Below are positions 1,761 through 53,434 of a DNA stretch of 64,000 nucleotides, piece by piece (positions within the stretch are counted from its first letter, which is position 1; every line of letters starts with the position of its first letter). The translations under genes were made by a program, and so were the position numbers. The notes below the pieces were generated by a model, which saw only the letters and a program-made list of their open reading frames with translations, had not been told where the DNA came from and did no database searches. This DNA is from Leptobrachium leishanense. Its lineage: Eukaryota > Chordata > Amphibia > Anura > Megophryidae. The DNA is taken from the NCBI GenBank assembly GCA_009667805.1, contig CM019071.1, positions 43,214,250 through 43,278,249 on the forward strand. Reading direction: 5' to 3'.

Positions 1761-4479
1761 TCAAATTCACGGAAGGAAGCAGAGTCCACCAGCTCAACCA
1801 TATAATAGTTACTATGAGATAACAGAATATTCCGCATATAATAGTTACTATGGGATAACAGAATATTCCGGACATAATAGTTACTATGAGATAACAGAAT
1901 ATTCCGCATATAATAGTTACTATGGGATAACAGAATATTCCGGATATAATAGTTACTATGGGATAAAAGAATATTCTGGATATAATAGTTACTATGAGAT
2001 AACAGAATATACCGGATATAATAGTTACTATGGGATAAAATAATTTTCCGGATATAATAGTTACTATGGGATAACAGAATATTCCGCATATAATAGTTAC
2101 TATGGGATAACAGAATATTCCGGATACAATAGTTACTATGAGATAACAGAATATTCCGGATATAATAGTTACTATGTGATAACAGAATATTCCTCATATA
2201 ATAGTTACTATGAGATAACAGAATATTCCTCATATAATAGTTACTATGTGATAACAGAATATTCCGGATATAATAGTTACTATGGGATAAAAGAATATTC
2301 TGGATATAATAGTTACTATGAGATAACAGAATATTCCGGATATAATAGTTACGATGTGATAACAGAATATTCCTCATATAATAGTTACTATGTGATAACA
2401 GAATATTCCGGATATAATAGTTACTATGTGATAACAGAATATTCCGGATATAATAGTTACTATGGATAAAATAATTTTCCGGATATAATAGTTACTATGG
2501 GATAACAGAATATTCCGCATATAATAGTTACTATGGGATAACAGAATATTCCGGATATAATAGTTACTATGAGATAACAGAATATTCCGGATATAATAGT
2601 TACTATGAGATAACAGAATATTTCGGATATAATAGTTACTATGGGATAACAGAATATTCCGGATATAATAGTTACTATGAGATAACAGAATATTCCGCAT
2701 ATAATAGTTACTATGGGATAACAGAATATTCCGCATATAATAGTTACTATGGGATAACAGAATATTCCGCATATAATAGTTACTATGGGATAACAGAATA
2801 TTCCAGATATAATAGTTACTATGGGATAACAGAATATTCTGCATATAATAGATACTATGTGATAACAGAATATTCTGGATATAATATTTACTATGTGAAA
2901 ACAGAATATTCTGGATATAAAATTTACTATGGGATAAAAGAATATTCTGGATATAATAGTTACTATGAGATAACAGAATATTCCAGATATAATAGTTACT
3001 ATGAGATACCAGAATATTCCATATATAATAGTTACTATGGGATAACAGAATATTCCATATATAATACTTACTATCGGATAACAGAATATTCCGGATATAA
3101 TAGTTACTATGAGATAACAGAATATTCCGGATATAATAGTTACTATGAGATAACAGAATATTCCGGATATAATAGTTACTATGAGATAACAGAATATTCC
3201 GGATATAATAGTTACTATGGGATAACAGAATATTCCGGATATAATAGTTACTATGGGATAACAGAATATTCCGGATATAATAGTTACTATCAGATAACAG
3301 AATATTCCGGATATAATAGTTACTATGTGATAACAGAATATTCCTCATATAATAGTTACTATGAGATAACAGAATATTCCGGATATAATAGTTACTATGA
3401 GATAACAGAATATTCCGGATATAATAGTTACTAGAAAAATAACAGAATATTCCTCATATAATAGTTACTATGTGATAACAGAATATTCCGGATATAATAG
3501 TTACTATGTGATAACAGAATATTCCGGATATAATAGTTGCTATGGATAAAATAATTTTCCGGATACAATAGTTACTATGGGATAACAGAATATTCCGCAT
3601 ATAATAGTTACTATGGGATAACAGAATATTCCGGATATAATAGTTACTATGAGATAACAGAATATTCCGCATATAATAGTTACTATGAGATAACGGAATA
3701 TTCCGGATATAATAGTTACTATGGGATAACAGAATATTCCGGATATAATAGTTACTATGAGATAACAGAATATTCCGCATATAATAGTTACTATGGGATA
3801 ACAGAATATTCCGCATATAATAGTTACTATGGGATAACAGAATATTCCGCATATAATAGTTACTATGGGATAACAGAATATTCCAGATATAATAGTTACT
3901 ATGGGATAACAGAATATTCCAGATATAATAGTTACTATGTGATAACAGAATATTCTGGATATAATATTTACTATGTGATAACAGAATATTCTGGATATAA
4001 AATTTACTATGGGATAAAAGAATATTCTGGATATAATAGTTACTATGAGATAACAGAATATTCCGGATATAATAGTTACTATGAGATAACAGAATATTCC
4101 ATATATAATAGTTACTATGGGATAACAGAATATTCCATATATAATACTTACTATCGGATAACAGAATATTCCGGATATAATAGTTACTATGAGATAACAG
4201 AATATTCCGGATATAATAGTTACTATGAGATAACAGAAAATTCCAGATATAATAGTTACTATGAGATAACAGAATATTCCGGATATAATAGTTACTATGG
4301 GATAACAGAATATTCCAGATATAATAGTTACTATGGGATAACAGAATATTCCGCATATAATAGTTACTATGGGATAACAGAGTATTCTGCATATAATAGT
4401 TACTATGTGATAACAGAATATTCCGGATATAATAGTTACTATGAGATAACAGAATATTCCGCATATAATAGTTACTATG

Positions 4480-4907
4480 TGTCAGGATCCCTGGCTGTAG
4501 CCATTCTGGAACCCCCCCTGGTGGTACACTTCCATGTACTGTTCCTGCCCTGTAACCAGCATTCACTATCAGCATCCAGCAATGCAACAGTTAACTCACA
4601 AACAACACACTTGACTCACAAAATAAAGGGATCTGCCCCACAATTAACATTGCTGGTTCATTACAGCTCTTGTGCTGAGAGAGTGAGGTGCTACTAACGC
4701 GCTGCTCTGCTGTACCAATCTGTTCCTGTTTATTATTTATGTTTCCTGCAACTCCACCATCATCCTTCTGAGAAACATCCGGTCAGTTTATTTCCCTATC
4801 ATCCTCCATACCCCTTCCCACCTGCTTATCAGTGCAGGACATTGCATCCTGGGCTCATACCCCTGCCATCCAGGTGCCACCCAGGTACCATCCCCACGAT
4901 CCTGACA
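4480..4907. mobile_element. Solo LTR in the 36-bp satellite (copy 1)
   Basis: A 428-bp unit begins TGTCAGGATCC and ends GGATCCTGACA read inward from each side (TG...CA ends, inverted TGTCAGGATC). It is flanked by the 5-bp duplication CTATG (4475-4479 and 4908-4912), which is satellite sequence. It contains AATAAA-type signals (AAATAAAGGG near 4620). No internal retroelement sequence adjoins it, so it is a solo LTR. I count about eight differences and one indel from the copy at 7574-8002. Confidence 0.85.
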
Positions 4908-7573
4908 CTATGGGATAACAGAATATTCCGGATATAATAGTTACTATGAGATAACAGAATATTCCGGATATAATAGTTACTATGAGATAACAGAATATTC
5001 CAGATATAATAGTTACTATGAGATAACAGAATATTCCGGATATAATAGTTACTATGAGATAACAGAATATTCCGGATATAATAGTTACTATGAGATAACA
5101 GAATATTCCAGATATAATAGTTACTATGAGATAACAGAATATTCCGGATATAATAGTTACTATGAGATAACAGAATATTCCGGATATAATAGTTACTATG
5201 AGATAACAGAATATTCCAGATATAATAGTTACTATGAGATAACAGAATATTCCGGATATAATAGTTACTATGAGAACAGAATATTCCGGCTATAATAGTT
5301 ACTATGGGATAACAGAATATTCCGGATATAATAGTTACTATGAGATAACAGAATATTCTGCATATAATAGTTACTATGGGATAAGAGAATATTCCGCATA
5401 TAATAGTTACTATGGGATAAGAGAATATTCCAGATATAATAGTTACTATGGGATAAGAGAATATTCCATATATAATAGTTACTATGGGATAACAGAATAT
5501 TCCGGATATAATAGTTACTATGGGATAACAGAATATTCCATATATAATAGTTACTGTGGGATAACAGAATATTCCATATATGATAGTTACTATGAGATAA
5601 CAGAATATTCCGGATATAATAGTTACTATGAGATAACAGAATATTCCGCATATAATAGTTACTATGAGATAACAGAATATTCCGCATATAATAGTTACTA
5701 TGAGATAACAGAATATTCCGCATATAATAGTTACTATGAGATAACAGAATATTCCGGATATAATAGTTACTATGGGATAACAGAATATTCCGGATATAAT
5801 AGTTACTATGAGATAACAGAATATTCCGCATATAATAGTTACTATGGGATAACAGAATATTCCGCATATAATAGTTACTATGGGATAACAGAATATTCCA
5901 GATATAATAGTTACTATGGGATAACAGAATATTCCGGATATAATAGTTACTATGGGATAACAGAATATTCCAGATATAATAGTTACTATGGGATAACAGA
6001 AAATTCCGGATATAATAGTTACTATGGGATAACAGAATATTCCGGAATTAATAGTTACTTTGAGATAACAGAATATTCCTCATATAATAGTTACTATGAG
6101 ATAACAGAATATTCCGGATATAATAGTTACTATGTGATAACAGAATATTCCTCATATAATAGTTACTATGAGATAACAGAATATTCTGGATATAATAGTT
6201 ACTATGTGATAACAGAATATTCCTCATATAATAGTTACTATGAGATAACAGAATATTCCAGATATAATAGTTACTATGTGATAACAGAATATTCCGGATA
6301 TAATAGTTACTATGTGATAACAGAATATTCCTCATATAATAGTTACTATGAGATAACAGAATATTCCGGATATAATAGTTACTATGAAATAACAGAATAT
6401 TCCTCATATAATAGTTACTATGAGATAACAGAATATTCCAGATATAATAGTTACTATGAGATAACAGAATATTCCGGATATAATAGTTACGATGTGATAA
6501 CAGAATATTCCTCATATAATAGTTACTATGTGATAACAGAATATTCCGGATATAATAGTTACTATGTGATAACAGAATATTCCGGATATAATAGTTACTA
6601 TGGATAAAATAATTTTCCGGATATAATAGTTACTATGGGATAACAGAATATTCCGCATATGATAGTTACTATGGGATAACAGAATATTCCGGATATAATA
6701 GTTACTATGAGATAACAGAATATTCCGCATATAATAGTTACTATGAGATAACAGAATATTCCGGATATAATAGTTACTATGGGATAACAGAATATTCCGC
6801 ATATAATAGTTACTATGGGATAACAGAATATTCTGCATATAATAGTTACTATGTGATAACAGAATATTCTGGATATAATATTTACTATGTGATAACAGAA
6901 TATTCTGGATATAAAATTTACTATGGGATAAAAGAATATTCTGGATATAATAGTTACTATGAGATAACAGAATATTCCGGATATAATAGTTACTATGGGA
7001 TAAAAGAATATTCCGGATATAATAGTTACTATGTGATAACAGAATATTCCGGACATAATAGTTACTATGTGATAACAGAATATTCCTCATATAATAGTTA
7101 CTATGAGATAACAGAATATTCTGGATATAATAGTTACTATGTGATAACAGAATATTCCGTATATAATAGTTACTATGGGATAAAAGAATATTCCGGATAT
7201 AATAGTTACTATGTGATAACAGAATATTCCGGATATAATAGTTACTATGTGATAACAGAATATTCCTCATATAATAGTTACTATGAGATAACAGAATATT
7301 CCTCATATAATAGTTACTATGAGATAACAGAATATTCCTCATATAATAGTTACTATGAGATAACAGAATATTCCAGATATAATAGTTACTATGAGATAAC
7401 AGAATATTCCGGATATAATAGTTACGATGTGATAACAGAATATTCCTCATATAATAGTTACTATGTGATAACAGAATATTCTGGATATAATAGTTACTAT
7501 GAGATAACAGAATATTCCGGATATAATAGTTACTATGAGATAACAGAATATTCCGGATATAATAGTTACTATG

Positions 7574-8002
7574 TGTCAGGATCCCTGGCTGTAGCCATTC
7601 TGGAACCCCCCCCTGGTGGTACACTTCCATGTACTGTTCCTGCCCTGTAACTAGCATTCACTATCAGCATCCAGCAATGCAACAGTTAACTCACAAACAA
7701 CACACGTGACTCACAAAATAAAGGGCTCTGCCCCACAATTAACATTGCTGGTTCATTACAGCTCTTGTGCTGAGAGAGTGAGGTGCTACTAACGCGCTGC
7801 TCTGCTGTACCAATCTGTTCCTGTTTATTATTTATGTTTCCTGCAACTCCACCATCATCCTTCTGAGAATCATCCGGTCAGTTTATTTCCCTATCATCCT
7901 CCATACCCTTTCCCACCTGCTTATCAGTGCAGGACACTGCATCCTGGGCTCATACCCCTGCCATCCAGGTGCCTCCCAGGTACCATCCCCACGATCCTGA
8001 CA
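7574..8002. mobile_element. Solo LTR in the 36-bp satellite (copy 2)
   Basis: A 429-bp unit nearly identical to that at 4480-4907, with the same TGTCAGGATCC start and GATCCTGACA end. The left target duplication is CTATG at 7569-7573. The right one starts CTAT at 8003-8006 and is then split by a later insertion at 8007, after which satellite resumes with TATG at 8906. The identical duplication and monomer phase fit either duplication of satellite plus LTR or two insertions at the same monomer site. Confidence 0.83.
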
Positions 8003-8006
8003 CTAT

Positions 8007-19993: not shown

Positions 19994-20119
19994 TTAATCC
20001 TAAAAAAAAATAATTTAAAAAAATTGCATATTGCTGCAGATATAACTAAAAAATGGTTTAAGAGATATTTAATTAAAAGTTAAAAACACAAATAATTTTT
20101 TAAATTTAAAAAACGATGC

Positions 20120-21945
20120 TGCATTAATTATACTGCAGAGAGGCGCTGCCCAGCAGTGTGCGGATTCATATGCTGCATTAATTATAGTGTAGAGGTGCTG
20201 CCCTGCAGTGTGTGGATTCATATGCTGCATTAATTATACTGCAGAGAGGTGCTTCCCTGCAGTGTGCGGATTCATATGCTGCATTAATTATACTGCAGAG
20301 AGGCGCTTCCCAGCAGTGTGTGGATTCATATGCTGCATTAATTATACCGCAGAGAGGCGCTTCCCAGCAGTGTGTGGATTCATATGCTGCATTAATTATA
20401 CTGCAGAGAGGTGCTTCCCTGCAGTGTGCGGATTCATATGCTGCATTAATTATACTGCAGAGAGGCGCTTCCCAGCAGTGTGTGGATTCATATGCTGCAT
20501 TAATTATACTGCAGAGAGGTGCTTCCCTGCAGTGTGCGGATTCATATGCTGCATTAATTATACTGCAGAGAGGCGCTTCCCAGCAGTGTGTGGATTCATA
20601 TGCTGCATTAATTATACTGCAGAGAGGTGCTTCCCTGCAGTGTGTGGATTCATATGCTGCATTAATTATACTGCAGAGAGGCGCTTCCCAGCAGTGTGTG
20701 GATTCATATGCTGCATTAATTATACTGCAGAGAGGCGCTTCCCAGCAGTGTGTGGATTCATATGCTGCATTAATTATACTGCAGAGAGGTGCTTCCCTGC
20801 AGTGTGCGGATTCATATGCTGCATTAATTATACTGCAGAGAGGCGCTTCCCAGCAGTGTGAGGATTCATATGCTGCATTAATTATACTGCAGAGAGGCGC
20901 TTCCCAGCAGTGTGTGGATTCATATGCTGCATTAATTATACTGCAGAGAGGCGCTTCCCAGCAGTGTGTGGATTCATATGCTGCATTAATTATACTGTAG
21001 AGGCGCTTCCCAGCAGTGTGTGGATTCATATGCTGCATTAATTATACTGCAGAGAGGCGCTTCCCAGCAGTGTGTGGATTCATATGCTGCATTAATTATA
21101 CTGTAGAGGCGCTTCCCAGCAGTGTGTGGATTCATATGCTGCATTAATTATACTGCAGAGAGGCGCTTCCCAGCAGTGTGCGGATTCATATGCTGCATTA
21201 ATTATACCGCAGAGAGGTGCTTCCCAGCAGTGTGAGGATTCATATGCTGCATTAATTATACCGCAGAGAGGCGCTTCCCAGCAGTGTGAGGATTCATATG
21301 CTGCATTAATTATACCGCAGAGAGGCGCTTCCCAGCAGTGTGAGGATTCATATGCTGCATTAATTATAGTGTAGAGGTGTTGTCCTGCAGTGTAGATTCA
21401 TATGCTGCATTAATTATACCGCAGAGAGGCGCTTCCCAGCAGTGTGAGGATTCATATGCTGCATTAATTATACCGCAGAGAGGTGCTTCCCAGCAGTGTG
21501 AGGATTCATATGCTGCATTAATTATAGTGTAGAGGTGTTGTCCTGCAGTGTAGATTCATATGCTGCATTAATTATGGTGTAAAGGTGCTGCCCTGCAGTG
21601 TGCGGATTCATATGCTGCATTAATTATACCGCAGAGAGGTGCTTCCCAGCAGTGTGAGGATTCATATGCTGCATTAATTATAGTGTAGAGGTGTTGTCCT
21701 GCAGTGTAGATTCATATGCTGCATTAATTATGGTGTAAAGGTGCTGCCCTGCAGTGTGCGGATTCATATGCTGCATTAATTATATTGTAGAGGTGCTGCC
21801 CTGCAGTGTGCGGATTCATATGCTGTATTAATTATACTGCAGAGAATAGAAGTGCTGCCCTGCAGTGTGAGGATTCATATGCTGCATTAATTATATTGTA
21901 GAGGTGCTGCCCGGCAGTGTGTGGATTCATATGCTGCAACTACCG
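20120..21945. repeat. 54-bp satellite array
   Basis: About 34 tandem units contain GGATTCATATGCTGCATTAA and TATACTGCAGAGAGG, ending CAGCAGTGTG. The main unit is 54 bp; shorter variants of about 50 bp (TATAGTGTAGAGGTG type) become commoner towards the right. Because 54 is a multiple of three, frames stay open on both strands (286 codons on -, 262 and 217 on +). These frames are artefacts. Confidence 0.93.
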
Positions 21946-31639: not shown

Positions 31640-32141
31640 TACAGTTGTGTTCAAAATGATTCAACCCCCAATGCTGTAAAGGGTTTTAGGGAATTTAGTG
31701 ACATTTGTAATTGTATTCAGAATGAAATCCTACAAGGACTTTTTAAAGAACCATATGCAACTAAAATGACATCAATTGGTTTTGTTTTTTTGAATGTAAA
31801 AGTTTTTTTATTGGAGTTCACACATGTAATGATACAACATTGCAGAAATGGTGAAACTTCGGAGATCAAAAACATAGATTCCTATCATTGACAATAGGCA
31901 ATGCAAATGAAGCCTCAGTATTATCTGATATAAGGTCATTAGTGCGGTCTCCATTTTCCACAAACAGATATAATCCTAAACTAACATAAAACACTAAACA
32001 CAGCAGCACTACAGTCGTACACAGTGAAATATCTTATATCAAGGTTCCTGACTCGACAAACACCCTCCACCCCTCCCATGTATCATCAAACTGGCACATT
32101 GAGTTATTCGCGCTGTGGGACATTTCTTCATATTTACAAAG

Positions 32142-35100
32142 AGAAAAGGACCTCAAAACTAGAGGTTAATGGGCTAGGACATGTACATCTAAAATATAAA
32201 CCTTTATTAAACATTAAACATAAATCCTTCTGAAGGTTACAATAACTAAACTCAGACTGACATAACAAATATCGACATGGATAAAATCAATATAACCACT
32301 ATGATTCTTAGGTAAAATACCTTTAAGGGTGGTTATAACCTAGGTAAATGGAACATGTGAAATAACCATATCAATTCCTCCTATTATTGTTGTGCATTCA
32401 TATCTTATGGAGCATGGGTATATTCACAACATTAATTTGAACAACAAATAAGAATTGTAACTCATATGTCATAACATTTAATGAGATAACTAATGATAAC
32501 TATCAACCCTAATATTGTACCAGATGATTACCCTGATAGGTAATAATATTTGGGGATCCAAAAAGGTCAATAATAATCTATGAAAAAAGGGGGGGGATTA
32601 GTTACTACCTCCTTCTGATTATATAATGCTGGACCACTTATTGGATATTGCTTACAGATCGCTGCTTAGACCATAATGAACCGCAAGATATTTAATGAGC
32701 GTATGGTAAGTTGAAGCGGTACATCGGGGACCGATTATAGGGGTACTTCAAACGATTTATCCTCTCGTCAGGAAAAGACTTGTACAACTCAGGCGGTAAC
32801 CAGAGTTCCTTGTTAACCTCTGAGAATACTCAGCAATTCATACCAGCCTTAAATCATTTATTAATTGGATAACCCAATATACATTTGAAAAGCGTCACGA
32901 CCAATTTCGATGTAGCATAGGTTCGATTATAATCAGAATCAATTCGAGTTTTAATTGTGAACAAAAGCTATAAGTTCTAGGAAAATTTTGGGATCATAGC
33001 TATATAAACAAATTTAGTAAAACATAAATTGAGGAGTAATGTAAATAGTATTGGTTCAATCTTGTACAAGTGCTGAAAAGCGTAGTACCACAATTATTCA
33101 CAGAAAATAGTTACATGATAGTAACAAATGCCTCAGTTAAAGCTGTTACTCTCATTCATCAAATACTTCGAGATACTGTATCTCTTAGGCACACTTATAT
33201 AAAGTCGAATAGTTACGCCCGCAGCAGCATTTAATAACACAGTTACTCTGTTATTATTTCGTTGACACTATACGAAATTCAACCTTATGAACAGTGAAGA
33301 AAGTCCAAACTGTTACTTTAATGCTGCAGATATTTTAAGATCTCATGTATCAGAAGCTCATGTATCTGGATGATAGCATCCAAAGTAACATTTGGATTTA
33401 AATACGATCTTTAACACAGTATAGAGTTCAAGCTGCTAGATTCATTCATTAGGTACTTGGTCTTACTCCATTTCAACAGCGCATATATTTTATAGATTGT
33501 TTACACAGTGTTCAAGACTAGTATATTCATTCATAAAGTACTTAAGGATGCTGAAAATTCACCGCAATACATGCTGAACTAAAGGTCATTTGTTTTATGG
33601 ATTCCCCAAAGTGCAAGTAGAGAACGTTACCACCAATTCGTGTAACATAAATTTAATTATAATCCGAATTAGCCATGTAAGTTTGTAAATAATTGCTTCA
33701 AATACTAGAGAGATATGGGATCGTAGCTATATAAGTCCTCCTGGACAGACAAAGGACGAACTGTGATCCAAATGGAGTTGGTTCAATTGCACAGAAGTGC
33801 TAAAGAACGTGACATCATTGCCACTAATCAACAGCGGACCTCTAGGCGACCACGCTCCAGGGAGCACCCAGATCCAAATACAAGCTCAAGTGCTTCAATC
33901 ATATATTATCTCATTAGATCTTGAAATCATTGTTTTGAGATTTAGACTGTTATGGTCATTCAGGTATTAGAAGATGCTATATTTCGGCATCGAGTTCAGG
34001 TCTATATATAATACCGGCAAATACCATATGTCAGCAGCACATCCATTGAATAACTACGCCCAGAGCAGCATTTATATTGAAACCTTCAATGAAACCCTCA
34101 ATCATTCATTATCTCATTCACAGTTCTATTGTTCTTATATCATTCCGTTTAGCTTTAAATTACTTTTGTCAAAAGGCATATTATTGCATTGATTTAAAGC
34201 TATGTTTAAAGATTTAGATTGTAGATTTCAAGCACTAAGTTTCAATCTATACCTAGTGCTGGCGAGTGCTATATATCAGCAACACATCTTTAGAATAACT
34301 ACGCCCAAAGCAGCGTTTGAATTTTTAACGTTCAATGAGGCACTTTAATCATTCATTATCTCATTCACAGTTCTATTGTTCATATATCATTCCATTTAAC
34401 TTAAGTTACTTTTAACAAAAGGCATATTATTTCATTTGTATCTTGAATTAAGATGAATCATTTATTGAGCATTCGACGCGCGTTTCACATACGTGCTCCT
34501 CAGGAATGCTCATTCCTGAGGAGCACGTATGTGAAACGCGCGTCGAATGCTCAATAAATGATTCATCTTAATTCAAGATACAAATGAAATAATATGCCTT
34601 TTGTTAAAAGTAACTTAAGTTAAATGGAATGATATATGAACAATAGAACTGTGAATGAGATAATGAATGATTGAGGGTTTCATTGAAGGTTTCAATATAA
34701 ATGCTGCTCTGGGCGTAGTTATTCAATGGATGTGCTGCTGACATATGGTATTTGCCAGTATTATATATAGACCTGAACTCGATGCCGAAATATAGCATCT
34801 TCTAATACCTGAATGACCATAACAGTCTAAATCTCAAAACAATGATTTCAAGATCTAATGAGATAATATATGATTGAAGCACTTGAGCTTGTATTTGGAT
34901 CTGGGTGCTCCCTGGAGCGTGGTCGCCTAGAGGTCCGCTGTTGATTAGTGGCAATGATGTCACGTTCTTTAGCACTTCTGTGCAATTGAACCAACTCCAT
35001 TTGGATCACAGTTCGTCCTTTGTCTGTCCAGGAGGACTTATATAGCTACGATCCCATATCTCTCTAGTATTTGAAGCAATTATTTACAAACTTACCATGG

Positions 35101-36631
35101 CTAATTCGGATTATAATTAAATTTATGTTACACGAATTGGTGGTAACGTTCTCTACTTGCACTTTGGGGAATCCATAAAACAAATGACCTTTAGTTCAGC
35201 ATGTATTGCGGTGAATTTTCAGCATCCTTAAGTACTTTATGAATGAATATACTAGTCTTGAACACTGTGTAAACAATCTATAAAATATATGCGCTGTTGA
35301 AATGGAGTAAGACCAAGTACCTAATGAATGAATCTAGCAGCTTGAACTCTATACTGTGTTAAAGATCGTATTTAAATCCAAATGTTACTTTGGATGCTAT
35401 CATCCAGATACATGAGCTTCTGATACATGACATCTTAAAATATCTGCAGCATTAAAGTAACAGTTTGGACTTTCTTCACTGTTCATAAGGTTGAATTTCG
35501 TATAGTGTCAACGAAATAATAACAGAGTAACTGTGTTATTAAATGCTGCTGCGGGCGTAATTATTCGACTTTATATAAGTGTGCCTAAGAGATACAGTAT
35601 CTCGAAGTATTTGATGAATGAGAGTAACAGCTTTAACTGAGGCATTTGTTACTATCATGTAACTATTTTCTGTGAATAATTGTGGTACTACGCTTTTCAG
35701 CACTTGTACAAGATTGAACCAATACTATTTACATTACTCCTCAATTTATGTTTTACTAAATTTGTTTATATAGCTATGATCCCAAAATTTTCCTAGAACT
35801 TATAGCTTTTGTTCACAATTAAAACTCGAATTGATTCTGATTATAATCGAACCTATGCTACATCGAAATTGGTCGTGACGCTTTTCAAATGTATATTGGG
35901 TTATCCAATTAATAAATGATTTAAGGCTGGTATGAATTGCTGAGTATTCTCAGAGGTTAACAAGGAACTCTGGTTACCGCCTGAGTTGTACAAGTCTTTT
36001 CCTGACGAGAGGATAAATCGTTTGAAGTACCCCTATAATCGGTCCCCGATGTACCGCTTCAACTTACCATACGCTCATTAAATATCTTGCGGTTCATTAT
36101 GGTCTAAGCAGCGATCTGTAAGCAATATCCAATAAGTGGTCCAGCATTATATAATCAGAAGGAGGTAGTAACTAATCCCCCCCCTTTTTTCATAGATTAT
36201 TATTGACCTTTTTGGATCCCCAAATATTATTACCTATCAGGGTAATCATCTGGTACAATATTAGGGTTGATAGTTATCATTAGTTATCTCATTAAATGTT
36301 ATGACATATGAGTTACAATTCTTATTTGTTGTTCAAATTAATGTTGTGAATATACCCATGCTCCATAAGATATGAATGCACAACAATAATAGGAGGAATT
36401 GATATGGTTATTTCACATGTTCCATTTACCTAGGTTATAACCACCCTTAAAGGTATTTTACCTAAGAATCATAGTGGTTATATTGATTTTATCCATGTCG
36501 ATATTTGTTATGTCAGTCTGAGTTTAGTTATTGTAACCTTCAGAAGGATTTATGTTTAATGTTTAATAAAGGTTTATATTTTAGATGTACATGTCCTAGC
36601 CCATTAACCTCTAGTTTTGAGGTCCTTTTCT
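32142..36631. repeat. 4.5-kb near-perfect palindrome with hammerhead-like ribozymes at its centre
   Basis: The left arm (32142-34508, 2367 bp) and right arm (34511-36631, 2121 bp) are inverse copies separated by two bases (CT). They match almost base for base where I compared them: outer edges, the 33974 and 34798 regions, and the centre. The length difference reflects about 246 bp present only in the left arm. Each arm starts, at the centre, with the 5' strand of a hammerhead-like stem I. It lies in the 3' UTR of the L1-like LINE. No coding sequence was recognised in either arm; the frames at 33974-34192 and 34798-34604 are the same sequence read from each arm. Confidence 0.92.
34511..34549 (+). 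ncRNA. Hammerhead-like self-cleaving ribozyme motif (short stem III)
   Basis: Order along the strand: CATTC (stem I 5'), CTGAGGA (core CUGANGA, 34516-34522), GCA-CGTA-TGT (stem II hairpin), GAAA (34533-34536), CGCGCG (minimal, self-complementary stem III), TC (cleavage dinucleotide), GAATG (stem I 3'). CATTC pairs fully with GAATG. Hammerheads with reduced stem III are known from Penelope-like retroelements and have been reported to act as dimers. The left arm holds the inverse copy at about 34470-34508. Activity is inferred, not shown. Confidence 0.65.
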
Positions 36632-36668
36632 TATTGATGTTGGGTTATTCCCTGAGTGGCTCTGGATT

Positions 36669-39600
36669 TCATATCTGAGAAGCTCTACAGTAGTCAACAG
36701 TTTGGCTACCCTTTTCATATGATTCATATTTACAAACACTTTCAAGGGTCATCATAACTTCTTTCATAGATGGGCAGAATGAGGAACGCCAATGTCTTGC
36801 AATGACCGTTTTTGCTGTCCCCAGTACCATAGAGATAAACCTCCTATGACGGATCTGAATAGTAATGGGTATGATATGTAGGAGATACATTTTCGGGCAT
36901 AGTGGGAGTCTAAGTAAAGTGCAGTGAGAAATTAGTCTACTGATTTTAACCCAATAACCCCCCAACGCGGGACATAACCAAAAGGTATGTAATAAGGAAC
37001 CAAGGCCGGTAAGGCATCTCCAGCAGAAGCCGGTATTCCCCGAGATATGGGCCAAACGGGTTGGTGTTAGATACCATCTACACAGCAATTTAATATGGGC
37101 CTCATGTAGATTGGTGCTTCTAGAATATTTGTATATTGTGTCCATGGCATATGACCAGTCATCTACGGAGAGCGTGAAAGCTAAATCTTTTTCCCATTTA
37201 ATCATATAGGGTAATTTTTTAGGTGGGTTCGGGGTTAAGAGGCTATCGTAACAGAGAGATAGCGGTTTCTTTTGACATTTCTTCCCCATACACAGTTTGT
37301 GAAAAGCTGAAAGGTTCGTAGGTGTAAAAGAGGTCAGGCCCTTCTGGTGTAGAGCGTGCTTCACACGTAGGTAAGAAAAACAGTCACTCAATGGGATGGC
37401 AAACTCCTGTACCAAGTCTGGAAAGGGTTTCAGGGAGTGGGGTGTAAAGAGCTGCCACACATGCGTCAAGCCGCGCAAAAAACAAGAATCTAAATTTAAG
37501 TCTGGAATATAGCGGCACAGAACTCTGAGCGGGGCGAGATATAATAAGTCATAAGGCCGTACCAACGGGCGACCCCACTGACGCCAGGACGTGAGGGAAA
37601 GCATCGAGGCGGGTAGTAAACCCATGGTGCTAGTTCTAGGAAGGAGTGGAAGCCACAACAGGTCGTGAAGTTTGTATGGGAAAATCATGGCGTTCTCCAA
37701 CTGTAACCATAGAGGTGTTTCTTTGAGATGCATTGACGACAACAATTGGGCTAGTAAGGCTGCTTTATAATACGATTGTAAATCCAAAAAACCCAACCCT
37801 CCTGTACGTCGCGGCGCGATGACTGTAGAGGCCGATACTCGAGGGGGCTTCCCTTTCCAAAAGTGCGCATGCAGCAGTTTTTGCAGCCGGAGCAATAAAT
37901 GCGCCGGTATAAAAACTGGAATGTTTCTGAAATAATATAAAATTTGGGGTAAGATACTCATCTTTATGGCCGCCATACGTCCCAGCCAGGAGGATTCGTT
38001 TGTGCTCCATGTAGAGAGCTGCTTCTCGATGGAGTTCAAAAGTGGCATGAAATTTTCCTTTAGGATGGTGCCTCGTGATTTAGTAAGGGAGATTCCCAGG
38101 TATTTTAAAGAGGTGGAGCGCCAATCAAAAGGGTACGTGCTACGCAAGGAGCTAAGGGATGAAGCTGCAATATTTATGGGGAGAGCTTGTGTTTTACTCA
38201 CATTATTTTTATAGTAAGATAACGCGCCAAATCTGTCGAGGAGACAAAACAGGGGAGGGAGCGATGTCTCCGGGGTGGTCAAAAAGAGCAGTATGTCATC
38301 TGCGAAAAGTGCCAGTTTGTGCTCCCCATGCGGGGTCGGCATACCTTTGATCGTCTGGGAGATTTTAATCTGCAGCGCTAAGGGTTCTAGAGCCAGAATA
38401 AATATTAGCGGGGATAACGGACAGCCCTGTCGGGTGCCATTGGTTATGTGGAAATAAGAGGATAGAAGTCCCGACGCCAAAACTTTCGCCGATGGGGCGG
38501 AGTAGAGGGCCATAATACTGTGTACAAATTGTGCTGGCAGACCAAACTTTAGTAACACCAGCCGCATATACCCCCAGTGTAGGCGATCGAACGCCTTTTC
38601 GGCGTCCAATGCCAGCAGGAGTCCGGAGGTATTAGTCCTATGGGCCAAATCAATTATATCATAAAATCGTCGGGTATTGTCACACGTCTGGCGGCCTGGG
38701 ACAAAGCCGGTTTGTTCAGTTGCAATCAATGATGGAAGTAGGGGGCCCAGCCTATTAGCTAGTAGTTTAGCATACAATTTGGCATCTACGTTCAACAGGG
38801 ATATAGGGCGGAAGTTGGCACAATGTGTCGGGGCTTTACCAGGCTTGGGCAGGGTTACTACCGTTGCTTGCAACATCTCCGGAGGGATAATGCCAGTGTT
38901 CTTAATGTCATTAAAAAACAGGGTAAGAGTCGGAACTAGTGAGGATGCAAATACCTGATAATACAGATTCGTAAAACCGTCAGGGCCAGGAGCTTTATTT
39001 TTTGGAAGTGCCTTAATAGCCTTAAGCACCTCCTCCTCTGTAAACGCGGTAAGCAAATCTGTAGCTTGAGAGGGAGAGAGGGAGGGAAGATGCGCAGCTT
39101 GGAGAAAGAGATCTATGTCAGCCTGGGTAGGGGACGGTACGGTATGATCCAATCCTAGGTTGTACAGGGAGGCATAATAACGTGCAAATTCATCAGTAAT
39201 GAGGGCCGGATTATAAATTTTGACATTATTAGCATCCAATAGGTACGGTATGTTGGTTTGCATTCTTTTCCCTTTCAGTTTGGACGCCAGCAGTTTCCCC
39301 GATTTATTCCCTTGGGTATAATGAGCATAGTTAAGCCATCTAATTGAGCGTGCCGTGACTTGGAGCATCAGGTGCTCCAACTCGCGGCGCTGCGCAGTCA
39401 ATTGAGCGGTAATGTGAGGGGTGGGCGAGGCTTTATTCTGGGTTTCTAGGTCAGTGATGCGTCGTGTAAGAGCAGTCATCTGAGCATTTAGGCGTCTTTT
39501 ACGCTGCGCTCCTTTCTGTATAAAATGTCCTCGCAACACTGCTTTGTGGGCCAGCCAAACCGACGCTGTTGCAACGTCCCCAGTTACATTTGTCATAAAA

Positions 39601-40428
39601 TACTCCTGGAGGAGTTGTAACGTTGTTTGCACGTCCTCTCTGTCTACAATGAGGAGTCATTAAGTCTCCAATTCCCCATCCCCCTCGGTGGAAAGGCAGC
39701 CTCAAAAGTGAGCGTGAGCGGAGCATGGTCAGACCACGTAATGATGCCAATGGTCGCCTCCAGGAGACGAGACAAGACTGAACTATGTATCAAACACAAG
39801 TCAATTCTACTATATGAGGAGTGGACATGAGAAAAGTAGGTGTAGTCACGTGTGTTGGGGTGACATATCCTCCACGTATCATATAGGTCAAATGATTGCA
39901 TGAATTCCCGTAGTTGTTTACTAGAGGGCGGGGGGAGCGGGAGTGGGGGCGGGGTTGGCTCGTCTGAGTGTCAACTTCGGGGTCAGGAGTGCAATTAAAA
40001 TCCCCACATAGAAACATCGTACCACTAGACATTTTTTTCACTCTACAAAAAGCTTTCCGCAGATAAGAAACCGGGTTATCATTAGGGAGGTATAAATTAG
40101 CTATAGTGACCGGTAACTCGTTCAGCGTACCCACAAGAATCACAAGGCGGCCCAACGGATCAACATACTGAGCCGAACACACAAAGGTCCAATCTCTATG
40201 AAACATAATCGAGACGCCTTTGGACTTTGTCGGAGCAGTGGAATGGTAGGCCTCAGTGTACATACGCGATTTCAAAAATGGAGGACGCCTCTTACAGAAA
40301 TGGGTCTCTTGCAAACAAACAATAGCCGGTTGAGATTTATGCAGGTCACGAAATAAAGCATGGCGTTTGTACGGAGTGTTCAAACCCCTAACATTTAAGG
40401 AATAAATCTGGAATTGGGGTTTACTCAT
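36669..40428 (-). pseudogene. L1/Tx1-like LINE ORF2 (endonuclease-reverse transcriptase), frameshifted
   Basis: The ATG at 40428 opens an apurinic-type endonuclease (YSLNVRGLN, QETHF, CGDFN). The frame changes around 39900-39960, continues with YSRIDLCLI and SDHAPL, then hits a stop near 39647 and shifts again. From 39632 a 987-codon frame runs to 36669 with the RT core: NKAPGPDGFTNLYYQVF, TRQGCPLSPLIF, FADDILLF (about 38302-38279), and a C-terminal CXC-type segment (FCWRCLTGLGSLLHTFWLCP). The protein nicks target DNA and primes reverse transcription there. Three frames and at least one stop mean no complete ORF2 protein, although the polymerase part is intact. Confidence 0.9.
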
Positions 40429-42336: not shown

Positions 42337-43383
<1,047 letters not shown>

Positions 43384-49458: not shown

Positions 49459-52400
49459 TCATACAACATTCAGCTTCTTTTGAAGAAAACAATAACGTTC
49501 CTTTGGCAACGGTTTGGTGAGTGCATCTGCAGTCATCTCTTCTGATGGGCAATACTGAATATCGATAAGTCCTTGCTCTTGTGTGTCCCTGAGCAGATGA
49601 TATTTTACGTCTATGTGCTTGGTTCTAGGGTTGATCCTTTCTGATTGTGTCAACTTTATACATCCCTGGTTGTCTTCAAAGATGGGTATCGGTTTAGACA
49701 TATCCAGTCCCATGTCTAATAGAAGTTGACGAATCCAATTGCTTCTTGACATGCATGTGCTGCTGCTATGTATTCTGCTTCAGTTGAAGAGAGTGCAACA
49801 GTCGCTTGTTTTCGACTAGACCAGCTGATGGTTCCTTCTCCGTACTGGAAGATGTAACCAGTAGTAGATTTGCGGTCTGTGATATCTCCGGCCCAGTCAG
49901 CATCTACATATCCAATTAAGTTTGCATTGGGTGTTGCTGGCAGTCGCAGTTTCATATGAATTGTTCCTTTTAGATACTGTATCACCCTTTTTACGGCATT
50001 CCAATCACGTTGACAGGGTGTTGAAACTTTTCTACAGAGTATACTCAATGCTGCGGCAATGTCTGGTCTTGTCACAGTTGCAATGTATAACAATTTTCCA
50101 ATTGCTTTGCGGTACTTCTCATTGTTAGGTAACAAGTTTTCCATTCCATTGTCTTTCTGATAAGCTGGTTCCATAGGCGTTTTCACCTCTTTTGCATCTT
50201 GCATGTGAAACTCTGCTAGAATATCTGTAATTTTCTGACTTTGGTGAAGAAGATAACTTCCGTCTTCTTCTTTCTCGATTTGGATTCCTAAATAGTGAGC
50301 AATGTTCCCAAGCTCTTTAATCTCAAAGTTTTGTTTCAATGTGCTAGTTATTTGATCATAATCCCCTTCTTGTTCAAAACAAATTATGATGTCATCAACA
50401 TAAATTAGTAGGTAGATCCATTTGTTGTCTTGATTCTTTGAATACAGGCATGGATCAGCGTTACTTCTTGAAAATCCTTCTGTTGTGAGTACTTCGTTCA
50501 CTTTTTCATTCCACATTCTTGCTGCTTGTTTGAGACCATAGATGCTCTTTTGCAGTTTACACACAAGGTTCTGTCCTGTATTAAACCCTGGTGGCTGCTC
50601 CATGTAGAGTTCCTCTTTGATATCTCCATATAGAAAAGCTGTTTTGACATCCAGGTGCTTCACTTGCATTTGTTTTTCAGCTGCAATGCTGAGGAATGTT
50701 CTAATGGTTGTGTGCTTTACCACTGGAGCAAATGTTTCATCATAATCTTCTCCATATTTCTGGGAATATCCCTTGGCGACTACTCTTGCCTTGTATCTGT
50801 GAATGTTTCCTTCTGCGTCGTACTTCACTTTAAAAATCCATTTACTTCCTATAGTTTTGTGACCGGGAGGGAGCTCTGTGAGAGTCCAGGTTTCATTTTT
50901 CTGAAGTGATTTTAGTTCTTCTTCAGCCGCCTTTCTCCACTGATTGGCTTCCCCTTTTGGTAGTTTATCTATGTCTTCCCAAGATGTTGGTTCAAATGTC
51001 TCATGTGTCTTAACAGTGTATGACAGCTTGCGCGGTGGGATCCCTTTTGTTGTCCGAGTAGATCTTCTGATTTCTGGTTGTTCTGTCGGTTCTACTGGAT
51101 TGTGAACAGTTAAGTCATCAATTGTGAGTTCCACTTCTTGGTCTGACTCCTGCACAGTTTCCTTTTGGTCAGCATCTCTTGCTATTTCAATCGGCACCTT
51201 TTCTTCGTGTTTTTCGGGAGTCATTATTTCTGATGTTTGGCTTTCATCAAAATAAACACTGCGGCTTACTGTGACCTTGTTGGTCTTTGGATTAAGGATT
51301 CTGTATCCCTTACTTTGTTCACTGTAGCCTATTAGAATGCCTTCTATGGCTCTGTTCTCCCACTTGGAGCGTTTTTCACTTGGAATGTAAACGTATGCTT
51401 TGCAACCAAACACTCTAATATGACCTATACTAGGTTTTGATCTGTTCCACATTTCATAAGGGGTACTTTCAATAGCTTTAGATGGTAGTCTGTTCTGTAG
51501 ATATGTTGCAGTCATTATTGCTTCTCCCCAGTACTTGTTGTGTAGGTTGGCATCTGAAAGCATGCATCTGGCCATTTCTACAAGAGTGCGATTTTTTCTT
51601 TCAGCTACACCGTTTTGTTCTGGAGTGTACGGTACGGTTGTCTGGTGTATGATACCATGTTTCTTTAGATATGATTCCACTTCTTTACCCATATATTCCC
51701 CTCCATTGTCCGTGCGTATTATTCCGGGTTTCCTTTGAAATTTGTTGCTAGTCATCGCTACAAATTCTTGAAGTTTATCAGTTGTCTCACTTTTGTGTTT
51801 CATCAGATATGTCGTTGTGTACCTGGAATAGTCATCAATGAAGGTTATTAAATATTTGTTGCCGCTGGGTGTCGGGGTTTTCATTGGTCCACACACGTCA
51901 CTGTGTATAAGTTCCATGGGTTTAGTGGTTTTTCTTTGACTGGCTTGTGGAAGTGGTGTACGTGTGGCCTTTGCTTTGATGCAACACGTGCACTTCATCA
52001 ACTTTGGACAAGGTATCATTATCATGTCTTCTGATAATTCTCTCTTAGAAAGTTCCTTTATAGCTTCTGAGTTTCGATGCCCCAATCGTCTGTGCCATAG
52101 ATGGATGCACTTGTCATGTGGATTATGAGTGACTGTTTTGACTTGAACACGTTCAGTGACGATTTTGTATAGGTGTTCATTCAACCTTCCTTTTGCAACG
52201 ATTTCTTTTCTGTTTCGAATTGTGCATTCATTACCTCGGAATTGTACTGTAAGTCCATTGTTAGCAAGGTTTTTTACTGATAGGAGGCTTCCTTCTAGAC
52301 TTGGAACATACAGAACGTTCTTTACAAGGATGCTTCGGTTACCTCCTGATGGTGTGATGCAGTTCAGAAATCCTTGACCTTTACCTTCTGATGTAATACT

Positions 52401-53324
52401 TTTCCCATTTGCTAGGAAGACTTTGTCTTTTGTATTAAAATTAATTTCTGTGAAGAAGGTCTCATCACTGGTCATGTGACTTGTTGCTCCTGAGTCAATG
52501 TACCATCCATGCGGGGTAGTATTCTGAGTTACTTTAAAACTTGCACTCCACGCTGTGTCTTTGCTTTCCTGTGTGGCTGCTTTAGCTCTTTCTTTTGTGA
52601 ATGTCTCTCTCCTTCGCTGTTCTGCTTTCCAGATTGAACAATTATATTTCAAATGACCTGTCCTTTTGCAGCGAAAACACACTGGTCTCTTTGTTTTGTT
52701 TTGTGTTTTCATTCACCTTTAGAGCTACTTCTGTTTTGTCATTCTCTTCACCACGTATATTTTCCTTCTTTCTGTTGTATTCATCAATTAATTTCCCTTT
52801 AGCATATTCCAGTGTTAGTTCTTCCTCTGGTCTGGTTTCTAGAGCGTTTATCAGGGCACTATATGATTCTGGAAGGCTGCATAATAGTAATGCCACTACA
52901 TGATTGTCTTTTATTTCTTCTCCAATTGCACGTAATTGCTCCACAATTTCCAGCATAGCGTTCACATGTTCACACATTTCCTGGCCTTTTTCCAGCCTCA
53001 TCTTATACAGTTTACGTAGCAGATATAGTTTACTGTTTAAGTTTGAACGCTCGTGCAGTTTCTGTAGCGCACTCCACATACCTTTAGCTGTGTTTTCTTT
53101 TCTTATATGGATAAGTTGATCATCCTCCACTAACAGGCTTATAACTGCTTTTGCTTGCCTGTTTCTTTTGTCCCATTCTTCTGGGTTGTCAGTGGGTCTG
53201 ATTGTATCCAGCACCTGCCACAGATCATCTTTGGATAACAGCATTTCCAGCTTAAACTTCCACAGCTGATAATTGGTATTGTTTAGCTTTGCTATTGCAT
53301 TTTCACATCTGAGCCACTTGCCAT
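49459..53324 (-). pseudogene. Copia Gag-Pol polyprotein, three small frameshifts
   Basis: An ATG at 53324 opens MASGSD; about ten codons on, the frame shifts to the long Gag frame (AKLNNTNYQLWKFKLEML, a UBN2-type Gag). Near 52700 it shifts back to the starting frame, giving the zinc knuckle CFRCKRTGHLKYNC, protease DSGATSHM, integrase (HLWHRRLGH, RTDNGGEY, VAERKNRTL), reverse transcriptase (YVDDIIICFE near 50395) and RNase H (DADWAGD, STEAEYIAA). A third shift near 49739 leads to the last 90 codons (FEDNQGCIKL). The first two shifts cancel, so the ancestral gene was one ORF, as in other Copia; they look like mutations rather than programmed frameshifting. Other than these, no stops occur. Confidence 0.92.
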
Positions 53325-53434
53325 CTTTCAGTATATTGGATGCAGCTCCTTTCCTCACACACAGCAGGTATTTGGATGATAGCTGCAGCACTTACTGATT
53401 TGTAGTTTCGTTTTCAGTGTCTGGGCCCATAACC

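Follow-up and report, generated by a model that had tools for sequence, protein, structure and literature searches.

The question raised by this locus is how a palindrome several kilobases long, turning at a ribozyme-like motif, came to be built and inserted into another retroelement. The locus lies in a 64,000-nucleotide stretch of the genome of the anuran Leptobrachium leishanense (GenBank assembly GCA_009667805.1, contig CM019071.1, positions 43,214,250 to 43,278,249, forward strand), referred to below as the window, whose numbering is used throughout. To judge from its sequence and that of its relatives, the 4.6-kb palindrome is a jumping-gene insertion in which the end region of a Penelope-like element (PLE) is present twice, joined head to head. 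It bears on open questions about PLEs, namely the route by which they insert, the reason for their inverted repeats and the role of their hammerhead ribozymes.

Layout of the insertion and its hammerhead-like motif

The arms of the palindrome (32142-34508 and 34511-36631) are inverted copies around a CT spacer, much as the first-pass annotation of the window had described them (inverse arms of 2.1-2.4 kb split by two bases), and the alignment it had asked for gives an arm-to-arm identity of 99.4% over a long BLAST match of 2,050 bases. The greater length of the left arm is due to one additional internal repeat unit (34135..34381, minus strand; 247 bases in the arm alignment, with an ambiguous placement within the repeat). 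The arms stand as given in the annotation, but the insertion proves larger than the palindrome. It spans 32141-36722, carries at its right end only a 91-bp tail with no left-end counterpart (36632..36722, plus strand), and is flanked by exact 14-bp copies of TTCATATTTACAAA at 32127..32140 and 36723..36736 (plus strand), which constitute a target-site duplication (TSD). When the flanks are joined across the insertion, a LINE-1-like ORF2 of the minus strand regains its C-terminal frame. The 14-bp direct repeats and the restored frame together imply that 32141-36722 entered as a single insertion. The interrupted host gene, whose type was judged by eye, occupies 36737..39632 on the minus strand (RVT_1, E 3.2e-31 over 36669-39632) and is broken near its C-terminus.

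Arm alignment and the insertion ends delimit the left arm (32141..34508, minus strand) as an inverted unit without a tail, resembling the pseudo-long terminal repeat (pLTR) of PLEs. The CT spacer (34509..34510) is assigned to this tail-less arm on the grounds that most relatives read AGCATTCC there. The right arm (34511..36631, plus strand), delimited by the arm alignment and by relatives, is a pLTR-like unit that would run from the RNA 5' end to the site at which tail-less copies end.

Both arms begin at the centre with the hammerhead-like series CATTC, CTGAGGA, a hairpin, GAAACGCGCGTC and GAATG, as had been noticed in the annotation. The left-arm motif lies at 34469..34508 (minus strand) and the right-arm motif at 34511..34550 (plus strand, core from 34516), with a predicted cut after C34544. 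The type I hammerhead core CUGANGA...GAAA...UH, with a paired stem I, is found in the window and in relatives. The covariance-model check proposed at the outset fell short: at gathering thresholds nothing in Rfam matched the entire window, the hammerhead was absent even at E<=10 from a search of a 5-kb stretch, and a 131-nt search placed Hammerhead_1 (RF00163) at 34510-34550 with 21.8 bits (E 0.0025), below the gathering score of 34, as are the 27.5 bits (E 3.1e-5) of L038, a relative that bears a reverse transcriptase (RT). The motif with at most three mismatches occurs at 206 places in the genome, its reversed control at none, and its frequency exceeds chance. Across 26 unpaired loci, variation in the 29-nt core is confined to three loop positions, at one of which a single locus differs; since 20 of the 26 were found through the motif itself, this constancy is partly built in. 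The core is also kept in 12 arms that were found by arm similarity or lie in the window, with two core changes in the left arm of L033. The hammerhead pairing is read from conservation (partly built in by the search) with no compensatory base changes, and, by our own reading, stem II would open with a G-U pair, which makes the ribozyme activity of the window motif uncertain. In the subfamily of L060, L061 and L059 the predicted cut reads GTA, not GTC.

Relatives of the insertion and the point at which they turn

One arm compared with the 3.54-Gb genome gave 97 scored matches, many of them as inverted pairs, the most widely matched part of the arm being its outer ~290 bp; 20 stretches, corresponding to 17 loci, were retrieved for comparison. 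In the longer copies the motif is preceded by an RT frame (814 aa in L038, RVT_1 E 3.1e-7; 692 aa in L050, E 3.2e-7), while in other relatives RVT_1 fell just under the cutoff (L046) or was not detected (the pieces L044 and L045). A protein search returned 360 proteins at E<=0.001 among 7,998 scored, the best of them a Leptobrachium leishanense protein at 86% identity; judging from RT motifs, we take the matched proteins to be those of PLEs. C-terminal to the RT, a YLITC...YVGKT motif can be recognised by eye; Pfam gave no GIY-YIG match at E<=10, and some of the listed homologues carry PF01541. The Penelope-like origin put forward in the annotation is borne out, the RT-bearing relatives sharing both motif and arm, and so is its description of the window copy as non-autonomous and devoid of a polymerase.

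The organisation of the parent element can be read from L037, in which the last 250 arm bases and the tail lead towards the start of the open reading frame (ORF), the tail ending ~65 nt before the start codon. The ORF of L037_38 is broken, with a start piece of 113 aa and the RT frame kilobases further on. Together with the RT frames upstream of the motif, this layout implies the order motif, ~2.2-kb leader, tail site, ORF, and then motif and leader again, an order in which the arm is, on sequence grounds, a long pLTR. A placement of the motif within the end of the RT ORF was ruled out, as the ORF in L038 stops ~460 nt upstream of the motif.

Relatives with two readable ends share the features of the window copy. 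An exact TSD of 14-16 bp was found in 19 of 21 copies (14 of 15 in a first set, 5 of 6 in a second), the exceptions being L044_45, with 8 exact bases within an imperfect repeat, and L059, whose retrieved stretch ended too early; L046, L049, L050 and L063, for which a single end was covered, were left out of this count. A tail of ~90 bp stands at exactly one outer end in all 21 copies with two ends read, and the tail-less end begins within a few bases of a common A/G-rich stretch before ACCTC in 20 of them. Single-arm copies, which the annotation had suggested seeking alongside palindromic ones, likewise exist. Two of four unpaired arms tested are flanked by TSDs and resemble single-arm insertions: in L089 a 15-bp duplication is separated from AGCATTC by 8 unexplained bases, and in L092 one of 14 bp is separated from it by 20. 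For L090 and L091 no TSD was found. Within the subfamily of L063, L064 and L059, the two arms of a copy are 98.2, 99.8 and 99.4% identical, against 88-93% between copies, and in the remaining retrieved palindromes the within-copy identity is 96-99.7% over the main match. Arms that are closer within than between copies imply that the palindromes formed separately.

The palindromes turn repeatedly at one place. Genome-wide, nine palindromes have an exact head-to-head centre on the 5' edge of the motif, against none in the control, and L033 makes a tenth. Four of the nine are identical, reading GGAATGCATTCC with zero spacer, and the others have a single G, CT (the window), CTCTG, a CTAGG-type spacer or a shortened join. 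These recurrent centres and the palindromic relatives uphold the view, expressed in the annotation, of two units joined head to head. For 119 of the 206 motif sites, neighbouring pairs within 12 kb were divergent in 22 cases, tandem in 6 (5.8-6.5 kb) and convergent in none; five of the 22 divergent pairs lie within 15 bases, for which P is ~5e-9 under uniform spacing, a crude null. Other copies turn inside the arm instead (L031, L032, L035, L040, L043 and L048). Two pairs of different subfamilies, C5:248357452/248358357 and C2:397845165/397846073, have nearly equal head-to-head spacings of 871 and 874 bases, the latter with a 108-base centre, and the centre of L043 holds ATGCTTTAT-like units in a row, as though DNA synthesis had slipped after turning.

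The nature of this edge was approached through 26 unpaired motifs, 20 of them picked from unpaired sites on the plus strand (not at random) and six already in the set. In 18, PLE sequence continues upstream with a TATA-like TTTAAAAG (14) or a close variant (4), which in the consensus starts 32 bases before the A of AGCATTC. Different sequence abuts the edge in the remaining eight, at AGCATTC in six, at TTAGCATTC in L071 and at CATTC in L075. The abutting sequence is inverted family sequence in four (L039, L070, L074 and L076); among the remaining four, three have no match among the compared loci and L075 has one weak match. Because an identical 5' end recurs whatever adjoins it, we infer an RNA 5' end at AGCAUUCC, most likely a transcription start. 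The recurrent boundary is therefore probably an RNA 5' end and not a ribozyme cut; it does not coincide with the element's own hammerhead cut, since the predicted cut lies ~35 bases downstream.

How the arms may have been joined

It can be hypothesised that the PLE machinery cuts the target with a stagger of ~14 nt and that both exposed 3' ends, one on each target strand, prime reverse transcription of the element RNA. Priming would occur at either of two internal sites separated by ~90 nt, of which one would yield the tailed end and the other the tail-less end. Both complementary DNAs (cDNAs) would extend as far as (A)GCAUUCC, where the hammerhead opens and the RNA would have its 5' end, with AGCAUUCC as the putative transcription start, and what are taken to be their ends would be joined, often over two bases, into a head-to-head palindrome centred on the hammerhead. 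We favour this explanation, in which the window palindrome would be a non-autonomous insertion of an endonuclease-type PLE formed from two separately primed cDNAs joined at their RNA 5' ends, and taken as a whole we consider it rather probable.

The centres offer an asymmetry that bears on this proposal. In five copies the tail-less arm extends past the tail arm (window, 2 bases; L033, 4; L059, ~5; L065, 1; L040, 10), and the tail stands on the other arm only, so that in several copies each arm has bases that its partner lacks. It follows that in these copies neither arm is a plain copy of the other, barring a later loss of bases at the centre. This asymmetry argues against the main rival, self-priming, in which a cDNA started at the tail end would fold back at the RNA 5' end and copy itself into a hairpin and hence a palindrome, as has been proposed for Penelope (PMC3846280, Discussion). 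The zero spacer at four of the nine exact centres would likewise not be the direct product of a hairpin loop, and the asymmetric pairs L039, L047, L070, L074 and L076 have unequal arm ends. Other observations weigh on the side of self-priming and against two cDNAs. In L043 the tail arm is 17 bases longer, with a loop-like centre of the kind that fold-back copying would give, and the tail arm is likewise the longer of the two in L068. The short, near-symmetric copies L035, L040 and L048 turn inside the arm around centres of 9-10 bases, which would fit two cDNAs only if both had copied one shortened RNA. In addition, the comparison of centres is uninformative in the four zero-spacer copies, where the arms are equal, and ambiguous in L031, L032, L035, L048, L067 and L041_42; the asymmetry could be imitated by small deletions that arose at centres later on; L067 starts further inside and is missing the usual tail-less end; and the likeness of arms within copies could also be maintained by gene conversion. 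On balance, self-priming appears to us an unlikely account, albeit one that deserves to be taken seriously.

The remaining possibilities seem far less likely. The annotation had placed the boundary of the retro-copied unit at the ribozyme, which stands; if this is read to mean that cleavage sets the boundary, the palindrome then arising at a cleaved 5' end, it now appears improbable. One copy, L041_42, with the spacer ATTTTT, has arms that start exactly at the predicted cut, whereas ten centres coincide with the 5' edge of the motif, ~35 nt before that cut; this contrast of ten to one is softened by an unequal search, since the pattern used for cut sites requires GCCTTAA downstream and fits the subfamilies of only 6 of the 10 edge-centred copies. 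Unpaired arms also start at the 5' edge, and an anole PLE with a mutated ribozyme still inserted in vitro (PMC11167929). An inherited centre, in which a palindromic parent was transcribed and reinserted, could explain the four identical GGAATGCATTCC centres and the similar spacers of L033 and L059, but the three copies compared have arms far more alike within than between copies, and we give this origin little credence. A fold-back DNA transposon, or a later inverted duplication of genomic DNA, has still less to recommend it: long inverted repeats with internal repeats look similar and the outer ~290 bp are matched most widely, yet such a transposon should have symmetric termini and autonomous relatives with a transposase, and what was found is a single tail in each of the 21 copies, RT in the longer relatives, single-arm copies with TSDs and a TSD length of 14-16 bp. 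That the palindrome is an assembly artefact is hardly credible; palindromes are prone to misassembly, but the arms differ by the 247-base unit and a few bases, and exact TSDs surround 19 of 21 copies.

A more specific form of the dual-priming explanation can be put forward tentatively, our judgement being close to evenly divided. A TATA-driven RNA would open with the hammerhead, which would take up its initial ~40 nt; the uncleaved RNA would be the usual template, and the cDNAs, primed from both ends of a staggered break, would be joined at the RNA 5' ends. If true, it could account for the inverted pLTRs of PLEs generally, with no need of self-priming. A genome with 206 motif matches and recurrent, precise joins may be regarded as a record of RNA 5' ends and of join products, and the joins point to a 5' end at the edge of the ribozyme, to templates left uncleaved for the most part and to priming that happens twice in each insertion.

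Elsewhere in the window, long arrays of 36-bp tandem repeats (1799-8006) and a tandem array of ~54-bp units (20116-21938) have open frames on both strands. An uninterrupted frame of 344 aa at 42349-43383 resembles a Tc1/mariner transposase by eye, and long frames of 998 and 249 aa at 49716-53391 appear Copia-like, also by eye.

Comparison with known systems

Metazoan retrozymes share with the window insertion a type I hammerhead and a non-autonomous nature. They are tandem repeats of ~150-300 bp that make RNA circles (PMC7761336), whereas here an inverted pair of ~2.2-kb units is flanked by TSDs; the short, hammerhead-bounded tandem units of such an element were not found, each ~2.2-kb arm having one motif. 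Hammerheads in PLEs are themselves known (PMC7761336, PMC6431247, PMC11167929), and their role is called still a mystery in a review (PMC7761336). With the minimal type I hammerheads of PLEs and Terminons (PMC7761336) the present motif shares the reduced stem III (ACGCGCGU here), the core and a PLE carrier; it differs in the G-U pair that, by our reading, would open stem II, and the ribozyme described here is a predicted one.

The Poseidon PLE of Anolis (PAc) is close in another respect. Its protein cuts both strands and extends them in vitro, beginning synthesis at either of two neighbouring internal sites (PMC11167929), activities that fit the dual priming proposed above. Its PLE hammerhead, its two internal RT start sites bounding the tail and its two-strand cutting and extension match what is seen or proposed here. 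The PAc hammerhead overlaps the start of the ORF, whereas here ~2.2 kb separates the ORF start from the motif, which occupies the extreme 5' end of the arm, and the portions of that paper covered describe no palindromic products.

The annotation knew of no standard family with such a layout. This holds in part: Penelope elements have been described in which inverted pLTRs meet head to head in a palindrome, with an optional single tail and TSDs (PMC3846280), and the word "hammerhead" has no occurrence in the main text of that paper. The Penelope elements of Adineta vaga share with the present family an inverted and a direct pLTR placed head to head, a palindrome at the junction, an optional tail at one end, and TSDs; their pLTRs are ~190-220 bp long, the tail 31 bp and the TSDs 8-10 bp (PMC3846280), compared with ~2.2 kb, ~90 bp and 14-16 bp here. 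A literature search on hammerheads, Penelope and inverted pLTRs returned no title on this arrangement, subscription papers lying mostly outside its coverage, which leaves priority unsettled. While the repeats, the tails and the hammerheads were already known in PLEs, the long arm, the position of the ribozyme where the RNA is inferred to start, and the evidence from the joins seem to be new.

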